Shown: piece after piece, positions 11,786 to 64,000 of the stretch | Position numbering within the stretch: position 1 is the stretch's first letter | How the letters are laid out: each line of letters begins with the position of its first letter | DNA from: Rhodobiaceae bacterium | GTDB lineage: Bacteria > Pseudomonadota > Alphaproteobacteria > Parvibaculales > Parvibaculaceae | Direction of reading: 5' to 3' | Assembly (NCBI GenBank): GCA_021404525.1 | Contig: JAAWWE010000006.1 | Coordinates: 62,001-126,000 of the forward strand | Length of the DNA: 64,000 nucleotides | Position numbers and translations under genes: made by a program | The notes under the pieces: model-generated | Seen by the model: the letters and a program-made list of their open reading frames with translations, nothing else | Told to the model about the DNA's origin: nothing | Database searches by the model: none

Positions 11786-11862
11786 TGGTGGGCCCGGCAG
11801 GACTCGAACCTGCGACCAAACCGTTATGAGCGGTTCGCTCTAACCAACTGAGCTACAGGCCC
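11786..11862 (-). tRNA. tRNA with anticodon CAT, probably tRNA-Ile2
   Basis: A complete 77-base cloverleaf including encoded CCA. The acceptor stem is GGGCCTG/CGGGCCC, D arm GCTC...GAGC, anticodon stem AACCG/CGGTT with loop CTCATAA, T arm GCAGG TTCGAGT CCTGC. The CAT anticodon could read Met or, after lysidine modification, the Ile codon AUA. The acceptor stem GGGCCTG matches what I recall for alphaproteobacterial Ile tRNAs, and the extra region TTGGTCGC matches E. coli ileX, so Ile2 is favoured over elongator Met. It is not initiator Met, which has an unpaired first base. Confidence 0.93.
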
Positions 11863-60172: not shown

Positions 60173-60204
60173 GACTTCACGAAAACGACGGATAAGTTCA
60201 ATCC

Positions 60205-60279
60205 AAGGCCACGATCGTGGCCCGGCGCTCCTGCGCCGTTCCCGCGAAGGCCGACGCGAGTGCGTACGGCCGTGAGCGA
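60205..60279 (+). repeat. Three-hairpin intergenic repeat, copy A
   Basis: Hairpin 1 is the perfect palindrome GGCCACGATCGTGGCC (60207-60222). Hairpin 2 is CGGCGC-TCCT-GCGCCG (60223-60238). Hairpin 3 pairs GGCCGACGC with GCGTACGGCC (60249-60271, one bulged A). The unit ends GTGAGCG. It begins CCAAG and lies 33 bases after the M48 protease stop codon. Three more copies (B, C, D) share this layout. Confidence 0.8.
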
Positions 60280-60431
60280 TAAAAAAGCATTTTGCGCGTA
60301 AGCAGGAGGAGCCCCCACCCTTCCTCCTCCCCCCAAAACGGGAGGAGAAGGAAGGTCCGGCGCAAGGGGGGATGCGGGGGAACACATGCACCGGTGGGGT
60401 TGGCAGAGTTCTTCAGAGCAGCGACGGAGCA
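60280..60431. repeat. Spacer with a purine/pyrimidine-strand hairpin
   Basis: Between repeat copies A and B. CCTTCCTCCTCCC (60319-60331) is complementary to most of GGGAGGAGAAGGAAGG (60340-60355), giving a hairpin with one pyrimidine and one purine arm. No gene seen. Confidence 0.5.
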
Positions 60432-60508
60432 CCAAGGCCACGACCTTGGCCCGGCGCCCCTGCGCCGCTCCCGTGAAGGTGGTGAGCACAGCGAACTCAC
60501 CGTGAACG
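60432..60508 (+). repeat. Three-hairpin intergenic repeat, copy B
   Basis: Hairpin 1 GGCCA-CGACCT-TGGCC (60436-60451), hairpin 2 CGGCGC-CCCT-GCGCCG (60452-60467), hairpin 3 GGTGAG with CTCACC (60481-60486 and 60496-60501), then GTGAACG. It starts CCAAG like the other copies and ends 9 bases from the stop codon of the minus-strand membrane protein. Confidence 0.8.
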
Positions 60509-60516
60509 CAATCAAG

Positions 60517-60873
60517 CTACATCATGGGCATATAGACAGCCGGTCCACCGAGCCTGACATAGGCATCAATGGTCGACGCAATGAAGAGCGCAGCGGACCA
60601 GTTGAGCGCCACGACAAAGCCGAACCACCGAAGGGCTGATATCAGGCCGGACCAGTGGTCAACCGGATCGTCATAATCCCCCAGCGCCGCAAACAACCAG
60701 GCGACACCTGAAATTTCCAGCGCTGGGACCACCACCACCAGCCATTCAAGTAGATCCTCAGCCGGGTCAAGCCCCAACCGATGGATGAGGAACAGGAACA
60801 ATGCCGCGCCTACGGCAACGGTCCGGGCATGCGCCAGATTGAACAAAGTTTCTCTCTCTAGTTCGATATTCAT
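60517..60873 (-). CDS. Small membrane protein, unknown
   Basis: 118 residues with about three helices: TVAVGAALFLFLIHRLGL, LLEWLVVVVPALEISGVAWLFAALG and LRWFGFVVALNWSAALFIASTI. GGAGG lies eight bases before the ATG at 60873. I do not recognise a family. Repeat copy B lies against its 3' end. Confidence 0.8.
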   Translation of the reverse strand: MNIELERETLFNLAHARTVAVGAALFLFLIHRLGLDPAEDLLEWLVVVVPALEISGVAWLFAALGDYDDPVDHWSGLISALRWFGFVVALNWSAALFIASTIDAYVRLGGPAVYMPMM

Positions 60874-61204
60874 TTTTTCGTCCTCCGCGCATGAGGCCGA
60901 GCGAAACCACTCGCTCCCGACACGCGGAAACTCCTTGTACTGATATTTTGATCGAGCCGACCACAGGCGTGCGCTCGCCGGACAGGCGAACCAAAGCCCC
61001 CACCGCGATACAAAATCGCAGAGCCGGTGCGCGAAATTTCGCGCGTTACATCACTGAAATGCCGAAGCGGAAAACGTGAGGCAGGACGTTAAGCGTACGA
61101 ACCGACAGACACGTCAATCGCAGGGTTTTTCAGTGTTTTGGTATGGAAACAAACCATCTGACTTTCCTTCGATTGTTATCGGGACACCGTTTGGGGCCAA
61201 ACAT
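60874..61204. other. Intergenic region, no gene seen
   Basis: About 330 bases between the small membrane protein and the RNA candidate. A GTTTGG-CC-CCAAAC palindrome near 61190-61204 follows the RNA terminator on the minus strand. Otherwise I see no gene, terminator or repeat. Confidence 0.45.
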
Positions 61205-61237
61205 ACAAAAAGCCCCATCCGGATATGGTGGGGCTTT
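61205..61237 (-). terminator. Intrinsic terminator of the RNA candidate
   Basis: AAAGCCCCA and TGGGGCTTT arms (61209-61217 and 61229-61237) with the minus-strand tail TTTTTGTATG. The T tract is on the minus side, so it ends a minus-strand transcript, although no protein gene precedes it on that strand. Confidence 0.8.
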
Positions 61238-61346
61238 GAAAGTGACTTCGGATAAGCGTAGGTACGCTTAGTCGCAAAGGAGCCCGCCCCAGGGCTCCGA
61301 TTGCCAGCCCATAAATGGGCGCCGATATTTTGTGGTCACTGTCATG
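61205..61346 (-). ncRNA. Candidate small RNA of stacked hairpins
   Basis: On the minus strand, TTGACG (61376-61381) and TACTCA (61353-61358) give a 17-base-spaced promoter. The predicted RNA then folds into GCCCAT-TT-ATGGGC (61307-61320), GGAGCCC-6-GGGCTCC (61279-61298), TAAGCGTA-CC-TACGCTTA (61253-61270) and a final AAAGCCCCA...TGGGGCTTT stem followed by TTTGT (61207-61237). All stems are perfect or nearly so and the last is a strong terminator. A 61-codon frame covers it but looks accidental. No known RNA family recognised. Confidence 0.55.
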
Positions 61347-61480
61347 GGCGTTTGAGTACACCCGCCATCACGCAACGTCAACAACACTTCTGCATGTTTT
61401 TTTGTTTCATCCGCTTAAAGACAAAATTGGTGGTGCATGTGTGATGCAAGAGTCACAGAGTGTGAAGAGAGACTGAAGAA

Positions 61481-61593
61481 CACGACCGTGGCCCGGCGCT
61501 TGATCAGAACACCCAAGCTTGCGACTGCAAGCCGGGCGTCAGCCCGCGCCCGCGCCCGTGCAGTGGAATGCTGAAAGCATCCGCGCGTGAGCG
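61481..61593 (+). repeat. Three-hairpin intergenic repeat, copy C, with a truncated extra copy before it
   Basis: 61481-61500 (CACGACCGTGGCCCGGCGCT) matches the beginning of copy A and looks like a truncated copy. The full copy then has hairpin 1 GCTTGC-GACT-GCAAGC (61517-61532), hairpin 2 CGGGC-GTCA-GCCCG (61533-61546), hairpin 3 GGATGCT-like stem with one bulged A (61565-61582) and ends GTGAGCG (61587-61593). Stem letters differ from A and B but pair correctly. Confidence 0.7.
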
Positions 61594-61674
61594 GAAAAAG
61601 AGTCCTATTGCATCACACCGCGCAACACGCGAACCTCTTCATAAAGAAACAAAAGACCACCGGAGGAAACAAAC

Positions 61675-62472
61675 ATGGCAACGAATGCAAACTGTTGGGG
61701 CGATGAAACGGAATATGATTTCAACGACCTCACAGCAAAGCTCAACCAATACTTACGGCTGAGAACCAATCCCGTCGCCATGAAACGCTTTGCGACAGAA
61801 GCGGATCTTGATGCCATCCCGAAACTGCGCCGCCCGCGCGACGGTGAGCTGATGGCTACTGACCAGATTGTAGGTCAGTCCCGCTGGATCGGGTACACGA
61901 TCGGCGTCACCATGAAAAACCTGATGGGTCAGCAATGCGGTGCCGTGGTGGGTCTCACCGCACGCGACGAAGAGTTTCTCGACGGCAAGCGTTTCCACGG
62001 TGTCTGGTATGGCGACCTGGAAGGAAGTGCGGAACACCAGCGAGAAATGTCCTGCGCGCCCCATGGCGATTATGAAGCGCTCGTGACCTCGCCGCTCATT
62101 TCGGGTCGCATCGACAACCCGGACATCTGCCTCATCTACGGCACACCCGGTCAGATGATTACGCTCATGAACGGCCTGCAATATAAGAACTACAAGAAGT
62201 ACACCTTCACCTGTGTCGGCGAGAGTTCTTGCTCGGACAGTTGGGGCAATGCGCTGAAGACCGGCGAGCCCTCCATGTCCATCCCTTGCTATGCGGAACG
62301 CAAGTTTGGCGGCGTGCAGGATGACGAAATGCTGATCGCCCTGCCACCTTCTTATCTGCCCCAGATTGTCGACGGCCTCGCCGCCCTCTCAAAGAATGGC
62401 CTGCGCTATCCGATCCCCAACCACGGCATCGACAAATCGCCGATGGCCAGCATCAACCAGAGCTATGGGTGA
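61675..62472 (+). CDS. DUF169 family protein
   Basis: 265 residues. Matches the DUF169 family (LNQYLRLRTNPVAMKRFATEADLDAI, then a Cys-rich middle: LMGQQCGAVVGL, REMSCAPHGDYEAL, DNPDICLIYGTPGQMITLMNGLQYKNYKKYTFTCVGESSCSDSWG). The several Cys could bind a metal or cofactor, but no function is established. GGAGGAAACAAAC precedes the ATG. Repeat copy C lies 80 bases upstream. Confidence 0.88.
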   Translation: MATNANCWGDETEYDFNDLTAKLNQYLRLRTNPVAMKRFATEADLDAIPKLRRPRDGELMATDQIVGQSRWIGYTIGVTMKNLMGQQCGAVVGLTARDEEFLDGKRFHGVWYGDLEGSAEHQREMSCAPHGDYEALVTSPLISGRIDNPDICLIYGTPGQMITLMNGLQYKNYKKYTFTCVGESSCSDSWGNALKTGEPSMSIPCYAERKFGGVQDDEMLIALPPSYLPQIVDGLAALSKNGLRYPIPNHGIDKSPMASINQSYG

Positions 62473-62505
62473 GGAGGCTGAGCCCATTTTGTCGACGTGA
62501 TAGGT

Positions 62506-62772
62506 TCAGTACAAAGAGGCGCCAATCAGCATCGTGGCTGCAGTACCAGTAAGAATGAAACCTGTTCGCCATCGACGCAGAAAGACTTTCCCCTCTTCAG
62601 ATAAGTATTCTCTGTTTAGTTTGTGAGAAAGAGGCAGCCAGACAAACCGATGTCTTTTCAGTTTTGCCTCTTCTTTCAGAAAGAAAATCAAGAAAAGGTC
62701 GAACAACCACGCTGAGCAAAAAATTCCAACAGTCGCCACAATAAACAAATACAGCATTGCTTCATTGTTCAT
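62506..62772 (-). CDS. Small two-helix membrane protein
   Basis: 88 residues: helix 1 MLYLFIVATVGIFCSAWLFDLFLIFFL, a basic middle (KEEAKLKRHRFVWLPLSHKLNREYLSEEGKVFLRRWR) and helix 2 TGFILTGTAATMLIGASLY. Lower GC and more Phe/Lys than its neighbours. No family recognised. Ribosome site is unclear. Confidence 0.65.
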   Translation of the reverse strand: MNNEAMLYLFIVATVGIFCSAWLFDLFLIFFLKEEAKLKRHRFVWLPLSHKLNREYLSEEGKVFLRRWRTGFILTGTAATMLIGASLY

Positions 62773-62980
62773 GGAATTTACTCACACGTTTCATAAGCGC
62801 CAGTGGTGTGGAGTGCGTCGGAACGCAAGATCCCACTCCACCGAAAGCTCTCTTGCGCCAGCAATACCCGTTCATCTGCTCGCCTGCTGTCGCGCAAGCA
62901 CCGTAGCTGGGTGAAGTGTCAGCGCACCTTGACCCTCGGGTCAAGCTCGGGGGTGCCAGCAAAGTGCTCATCACACACCC
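62773..62980. repeat. Intergenic region with a strong hairpin
   Basis: CTTGACCC-TC-GGGTCAAG (62928-62945) is a perfect 8-bp stem, nested in an outer GCACC (62924-62928) and GGTGC (62952-62956) pair. It stands just before repeat copy D. No gene visible. Confidence 0.55.
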
Positions 62981-63055
62981 AAGCTCGCGACCGCGAGTCG
63001 GTGCCACTGCACCGCCCCCGCGGAGGCAGTGAGCAAAGCGAACTCGCCGTGAGCG
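62981..63055 (+). repeat. Three-hairpin intergenic repeat, copy D
   Basis: Hairpin 1 CTCGCG-AC-CGCGAG (62984-62997), hairpin 2 CGGTGC-CACT-GCACCG (62999-63014), hairpin 3 GGC...GAG with CTCGCC (63025-63048), then GTGAGCG (63049-63055). In hairpin 2 the fourth pair is T-A where A and B have C-G, and in hairpin 3 GGC/GCC replaces GGT/ACC of copy B. It ends 5 bases from the aminotransferase stop codon. Confidence 0.8.
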
Positions 63056-63059
63056 AGAA

Positions 63060-64000
<941 letters not shown>

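Follow-up and report, generated by a model that had tools for sequence, protein, structure and literature searches.

In a 64,000-nt stretch of the genome of a Rhodobiaceae bacterium (GenBank assembly GCA_021404525.1, contig JAAWWE010000006.1, positions 62,001 to 126,000; hereafter the window), a repeat of three hairpins was identified as a structure-conserved nucleic acid element, in which compensatory changes exceed both shuffle and slide controls. The 77-nt unit covaries around a near-invariant P3-[GNA/GNGA]-P4 core, is spread patchily among genomes, occurs in arrays and as truncated copies, is exchanged between positions, and is polar with respect to gene ends. A sequence-only reading of the window had described four covarying copies of either a functional RNA element or a mobile repeat resembling the repetitive extragenic palindromic (REP) sequences; to this are added here the polarity, the internal loop that stays constant, the exchange between positions, and rRNA-operon copies in relatives. 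With slightly better than even confidence, we regard the element as an alphaproteobacterial family of short, non-coding, non-autonomous, structure-recognised mobile repeats.

Anatomy and covariation of the unit

Copy A (positions 60203 to 60279) is laid out as CCAAG-H1-H2-linker-P3-GAA-H3-GTGA-P3', where H1 to H3 are the hairpins, and is located 30 nt past the stop of an M48 peptidase open reading frame (ORF). Copy B (60432 to 60508) has the same architecture with an outer stem of CGT/ACG instead of CGC/GCG, and 8 nt separate its 3' end from the stop of the ORF at 60517-60873, on the minus strand. Copy D (62979 to 63055) ends 4 nt from the stop of a minus-strand aminotransferase ORF ending at 63060, homologues of which are adjoined by copies in G001, G002, G003, and G004 (G000 denotes the window's own genome and G001 to G006 its congeners). 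Copy C (61513 to 61593) is divergent and, unlike A, B, and D near stops, lies 81 nt upstream of a start codon; a truncated copy just upstream of it (61481 to 61500, DNA match at C18:123481-123500) comprises the greater part of H1 and the first part of H2. All of these are on the plus strand. The orientation and order reported earlier for the four copies were found again, as were the CGA core of H1, an H2 that in each of the four copies can be read with a 4-nt loop, and the GTGAGCG/GTGAACG ends. The start given for B was exact and those of A, C, and D were moved 2 nt upstream, while the closeness to stop codons claimed for the copies holds for A, B, and D and not for C.

A fifth copy, E, was found on contig C44 by DNA similarity. 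Covariance model R1 was built from A, B, D, and E, and model R2 was built with C included. Copy C scored 40.5 bits with R1, from which it had been left out, and 63.2 bits with R2, which contains it. A sixth copy, F, was located about 17 kb past copy D (49.1 bits, model R1), and the covariance model search of the own genome gave six copies in all. Five of these six lie inside 20 kb. A descriptor light on structure, designed from the copies, matched A, B, and D, missed C, and found nothing else in the window; on 60 shuffles it gave a mean of 0.017 matches (maximum 1). The repeat is not confined to the four copies first described, since R1 finds C and F and the search of relatives, which had been suggested as a check, returned many further copies concentrated at gene ends.

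The unit of about 77 nt runs in the order CCAAG, H1, H2, about 4 nt, a 3-bp stem P3, GNA, H3, GNGA, P3', and an A-rich stretch, with the 3-bp stem closing H3 via the internal loop GNA/GNGA. H1 has 6 bp and a loop that is mostly GACN, H2 follows directly or nearly directly with 5-6 bp and a loop of 3-5 nt, and H3 varies in both letters and length. P3 occurs as CGC/GCG, CAC/GTG, CGT/ACG, GTC/GAC, ATC/GAT, CCC/GGG, and GGC/GCC among the copies, while the internal loop is near-invariant (GNA in 124/124 and GNGA in 123/124 high-scoring rows).

When A, B, D, and E were aligned with MAFFT, standard pairs filled 98.6% of the 72 pair cells, compared with 87.6% in shuffles. Both sides had changed in 7 of 18 pairs, which was matched by none of 500 shuffles, and the count of further pair types was matched by 10 of 500; slid-structure controls on the same copies were 24-44% paired. 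In an alignment of 81 distinct rows, which was fitted to the model structure and hence leans toward it, 96.6% of 1424 cells were paired versus 76.2% in shuffles and the covariation score was 0.506 versus 0.156, neither value being reached in 500 shuffles; doubly changed cells and pair types were also above all 500. It had been proposed that the fold rather than the letters is conserved, and the pairing, which exceeds shuffles on four copies and on 81 rows, bears this out: the stem changes are better paired than chance. Minimum-energy folding of single strands gave the three hairpins only in A and E, with other folds for B and D and a variant for C, and the fold of copy B had a stability z of -1.12 (25/200 shuffles were equally stable).

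G.T wobbles in the stems outnumbered A.C mismatches by 69 to 21, with 100 other mismatches, in 173 rows, and by 44 to 4 in 124 rows drawn from the 66 best of A7 and the 60 best of A8. The rows are not independent, and the ratio is inflated because the model rewards G.T over A.C, loci were taken best-first, and a score cut was applied in the 124-row count. The excess favours folding of the strand that had been drawn in the sequence-only reading.

Distribution, arrays, and exchange between positions

Congeners G001, G002, G003, G004, G005, and G006 have 6, 7, 8, 4, 0, and 1 matches, respectively (E 0.01 or better). With the best 12 candidates per genome scored, matches were present in at least 30 of 385 genomes of a class sample under 17 family labels, including the own genome and two congeners, and in at least 17 of 398 genomes of a phylum sample (E 1e-4), all of the same class; the out-of-class share of the 398 is not given. 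When 150 candidates each were rescored, four rich genomes had at least 27, 30, 62, and 18 matches (E 0.01 or better), many of the 62 in G322 being short (about 50 nt) and weaker. No Rfam model reached its gathering score on the element in the own copies, the loci of relatives, or the rRNA-operon stretches. Below threshold, mir-207 matched over copy B on the minus strand (24.2 bits versus 88) and sX4 across tRNA plus element in L073 and L075 (27.3 and 26.4 bits versus 70). At L083:494-545, near a tandem array, whalefall-1 was matched below threshold at 26 bits (gathering 37).

Carriage by phages or plasmids was considered and rejected: a viral-contig pattern match (31.5 bits) lay within a 1162-aa ORF of a phage-like contig, lacked hairpin 3, and was judged chance, a second pattern search for phage or plasmid carriage gave 0 matches, and blastn with copy E against phages and plasmids gave none. 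A pattern match in Actinocatenispora (13.4 bits) was likewise read as chance. Blastn with a rhizobial copy and the P. zundukense copies returned rRNA-operon copies on large replicons.

At the site of copy A, G001 has a truncated copy and G003 a whole copy of another type, and in an alignment by eye the 3' end of an older copy seems to persist behind copy A. Of the genomes compared at locus F, G000 and G001 have H3 and the 3' flank in common and differ in H1 and H2 (by eye), and G002 and G003 have no element; the locus can be aligned on the 3' side only. The tRNA-Met gene of the window (11786 to 11862, minus strand) has no element behind it, and the own genome has no copy at this site; in G001 a copy lies 4 nt from the tRNA, and in G006 a weak match (29.6 bits) lies beside the same tRNA-Met. 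Seven tandem arrays of 2-4 copies were found, with periods of about 83-94 nt, and in five of the seven 2-3 nt separate the final copy from the facing gene.

Further repeats were observed around some copies. The tandem units at L069 / G131:C15 consist of the element plus what appear to be the 17 terminal nt of tRNA-Ser, and adjoin a decayed tRNA-Ser-like stretch and an intact tRNA-Ser. A copy at L070:580-753 has an insert of tens of nt in hairpin 2 that holds a 36-nt direct repeat. Three-hairpin copies at congener loci L120, L122, and L123, which are the surroundings of loci C, D, and G002:2007302 in congeners, have another long palindromic repeat in their vicinity, of the type GTCACCCCCGGACTTGTTCCGGGGGTCCAGG ... 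CCCTGGATTGCCGGAATAAATCGGGCAATGACA; at locus C in G001 and G003 this other repeat comes after a CCCAAGCTCGCGACA start.

Polarity at gene ends and copies in rRNA operons

Neighbours of 156 unique copies were taken from crude ORF calls and ARAGORN. Called ORFs (at least 90 aa) that overlapped a copy by at least 30 nt, as was the case for 53 of the 156, were ignored without a one-by-one check. On the 3' side, 113 of the 156 copies have a neighbour encoded by the opposite strand; the end of this facing gene is within 15 nt in 51 of the 113 and at 30-50 nt in 24, and in the latter cases another hairpin repeat sits between in several genomes. Nine of the 156 copies end 4-9 nt from a tRNA, and at five more loci the distance from the element to a tRNA behind it is 9-25 nt. 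The flank past the 3' end is rich in A, which makes up 83, 45, 79, 66, 57, and 63% at positions +1 to +6 (155 flanks). No neighbour gene is common to the copies.

For polarity, one copy was kept per intergenic region, which gave 119 intergenic loci (64 convergent, 28 + 22 codirectional, and 5 divergent gene pairs), and expectations were based on uniform placement. At 48 of the 119 loci, versus 13.6 expected, no more than 15 nt separate the GTGAGCG (3') end from the end of a facing gene or tRNA, and the 5' end is within 15 nt of a facing gene end at 7 versus 13.6 expected. Outside the window's genus, the counts were 41 for the 3' end and 4 for the 5' end, each versus 12.5 expected. Between convergent genes it is the 3' end that lies closer in 43 of 62 cases (p 0.003), and at 28 of the 119 loci both neighbours are on the other strand.

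In the window's genus almost all copies are on the C-rich strand, in the negative-skew half (G000, G001, and G002). A replication-strand bias was tried as an explanation of orientation: 6/6 copies in G001 and 6/7 in G002 are on the C-rich strand, the seventh G002 copy being weak and in the other skew half, and the skew of the window is negative. Because G322 mixes orientations within single contigs, this bias was dropped as a general rule. At loci of G322, G391, and G272 (e.g. L096, L106, and L101), the element has hairpins of the TAGAGCG or TAGACC type on its flanks; by eye, those of G322 make up an outer TAGAGCG...CGCTCTA frame, and gene ends there cluster 27 nt away on the 5' side and 38-40 nt away on the 3' side.

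Copies between 23S and 5S were found in G664 and G475 (L238 and L239). Ten named plasmid or chromid stretches (Phyllobacterium, Neorhizobium, Rhizobium, Agrobacterium salinitolerans, and Roseibium porphyridii) gave 18 matches, the weakest with E 0.0024; these stretches are related and were located through their similarity to a small number of such copies, and hence are not independent. Fifteen of the 18 lie outside 23S and all 15 are antisense to the operon: four are 10-13 nt behind a tRNA, seven are in the 16S-tRNA spacer at 182-215 nt from 16S, three are 43-57 nt behind 23S, and one is 36 nt behind 5S. The remaining three lie inside 23S at the helix-9 insert: P. zundukense Tri-48 has two, inverted relative to each other, and Phyllobacterium sp. 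628 has one, complete and in sense orientation. Phyllobacterium A18/5-2 has no helix-9 element, and its 23S matches that of sp. 628 on both sides. Helix 9 was assigned from the position, about 150 nt into 23S, and from the positions of intervening sequences (IVS) given in excerpts of the published literature.

Explanations of the element and comparison with known systems

The main rival is a cis-acting RNA element of gene 3' ends, kept by selection as an exonuclease block, for RNase III or RNase E processing, or for translation termination; we consider it somewhat unlikely as the explanation, and a role in RNA 3'-end formation or stability could coexist with mobility. Such an element would fit the 51 of 113 facing genes that end within 15 nt, the nine tRNAs that end 4-9 nt from a copy, the copies in 16S-tRNA, tRNA-tRNA, and 23S-5S spacers and behind 5S, and divergent regions that are nearly free of copies (5/119). 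Since both strands can fold, convergent genes could share one copy, and excerpts of two papers report ribosome stalling by E. coli REPs that lie within 15 nt of a stop (PMC12306157, PMC5082802). It sits less well with the wobble bias, which points to the strand antisense to the adjacent gene, with the 28 of 119 loci at which both neighbours are on the other strand, and with patchy presence in related genomes, as G005 (no match) and G006 (one weak match) live almost without the element.

Membership of a REP/RAYT system that has lost its Y1 transposase, or is served by one located elsewhere, is improbable. The copies are palindromic and dispersed, GGAG is present in 148 of 191 copies, mostly at the junction of GGA and hairpin 3, and Y1_Tnp passes the cut-off in 10 of 27 carriers, yet the unit has three hairpins rather than one, GTAG and GTGG, the head motifs of REPs, occur anywhere in only 7/191 and 46/191 copies, and ten Y1 loci of about 3 kb each (of 24 matches over cut-off) gave one element match (E 0.46) and none that was convincing. 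A multi-copy small RNA gene family with its own promoter would account for the defined ends, the wobble count in favour of the plus-strand fold, and the low copy number in the window's genus; up to 62 matches per genome, a following stretch that is A-rich and not U-rich, a strongly variable hairpin 3, and tandem arrays make this very improbable. That unrelated GC-rich palindromes are alike by chance is scarcely credible even though B and D do not have the shared fold as their minimum-energy structure, in view of the independent match to the left-out copy C, the covariation, the rarity in shuffles, and the genome searches, which already refuted it.

For the favoured mobile repeat, we infer an enzyme, a substrate (single-stranded DNA or RNA), and a direction of cause. 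An enzyme supplied in trans would recognise the folded single strand via the constant core and would join the 3' end of the element to a T-tract that directly follows the stop or CCA on the strand of the gene. Copies may persist because 3' flanks, rRNA spacers, and the 23S helix-9 loop tolerate hairpins, and after insertion, tandem duplication and recombination could spread copies locally and would account for clusters like the one in the window. More tentatively, and at less than even probability, one and the same element would be moved by an enzyme acting on a folded single strand, would target T-tracts directly behind mRNA and tRNA 3' ends across Alphaproteobacteria, would have settled in rRNA-operon spacers, and would be the source of at least some of the helix-9 IVS that fragment 23S rRNA.

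Several observations weigh against these proposals. The polarity could arise from selection rather than insertion, and codirectional regions show no bias in orientation (28 versus 22, p 0.48). In the 81 rows, the number of pairs changed on both sides (15/18) was matched by 12 of 500 shuffles. The seven copies at 182-215 nt from 16S and the four at 36-57 nt from 23S or 5S are not directly behind an RNA end. The sequence AAAATGG at the tRNA-Met end is present in both G000 and G001, and the A-run there exists without the element; the tRNA-Met site and locus F are not clean empty sites because they align on the 3' side only; the 5' boundary is not fixed, and by eye no target-site duplication was seen. 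Congeners share positions A, B, D, and E, and most copies here therefore look old, while the diversity of neighbour genes means that no autonomous parent copy was recognised. No mobilising gene was found either. The RAYT link that had been suggested was not borne out, as no Y1_Tnp is over cut-off in G000, G001, G003, or the 62-match G322. RVT_1 matches are present in only 5 of 20 genomes, including carriers G003, G272, and G774, and IntI integrase is over cut-off in 0 of 20, all of which have weaker matches. Y1, RVT_1, and the integron integrase do not fit as universal partners.

Other classes of element were compared with the copies. A poly(A)-primed retroelement resembling short interspersed elements is unsupported because RVT_1 is not found in several carriers (no match in G000, G001, G002, G322, G254, G391, G314, and G342). 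Integron attC sites have the cores RYYYAAC/GTTRRRY; none of 191 copies holds both, and none of the 20 genomes has an IntI over cut-off. A miniature inverted-repeat transposable element was rejected since terminal inverted repeats fail, with at most 3 of 7 terminal letters matching in 190 of 191 copies and 4 in one. Rhizobial RIME-type and TAGAGC-type palindromic repeats are intergenic palindromes found in the same bacterial class; the TAGAGC/TAGACC hairpins on either side of the element in some genomes look like units distinct from it in sequence.

Comparison with described systems was based on excerpts of PMC12306157, PMC2817692, PMC5082802, PMC2267715, PMC2743711, PMC6191907, and PMC4990558. 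No description of this element was recognised among the matches listed in open-licence full texts, a scope outside which most subscription papers lie. The origin of 23S rRNA IVS is called unclear in an excerpt of PMC4990558. Among alphaproteobacterial 23S IVS, the helix-9 inserts of Phyllobacterium sp. 628 and P. zundukense Tri-48 hold the element, whereas the insert of Phyllobacterium T1293 (roughly 80 nt) has no model match; with a dispersed element both at gene ends and as a helix-9 insert, a mobile origin of IVS becomes testable.

With the REPs, bacterial interspersed mosaic elements, and RAYTs the element shares short dispersed extragenic palindromes, clusters, a position in 3' untranslated regions (UTRs), and a part of its copies within 15 nt of a stop. 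It differs in its three hairpins with an internal-loop core, in letters that vary between genomes while the fold is kept, and in the Y1 gene, which was not found over cut-off in several carriers; no cognate Y1 transposase flanked by the repeats was found in the genomes and Y1 loci examined. RAYTs, by the criteria of a 2010 paper, were found only in gammaproteobacteria according to the excerpt of it (PMC2817692). The REP-like character proposed earlier is retained for the placement and not for REP/RAYT membership: the element is REP-like in habit but failed the tests for two defining features of that system, the GTAG/GTGG head and the cognate Y1 transposase. The closest described alphaproteobacterial repeats among those compared, to judge from the excerpt of PMC5082802, are Br-REP1 and Br-REP2 of Bradyrhizobium, Br-REP1 being a unit of three palindromes in overlapping 3'-UTRs of convergent genes. 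Its central stem CCGGAATCTCGAGATTCCGG is absent from the window at up to 3 mismatches and has 6 mismatches to the best of the 191 copies; as Br-REP1 was compared by its central palindrome and description, a distant relation is possible. The covariance model can be used for annotation and the constant internal loop as bait for the recognising protein. The family also provides an alphaproteobacterial counterpart, without a known mobiliser, to the REPs of E. coli.

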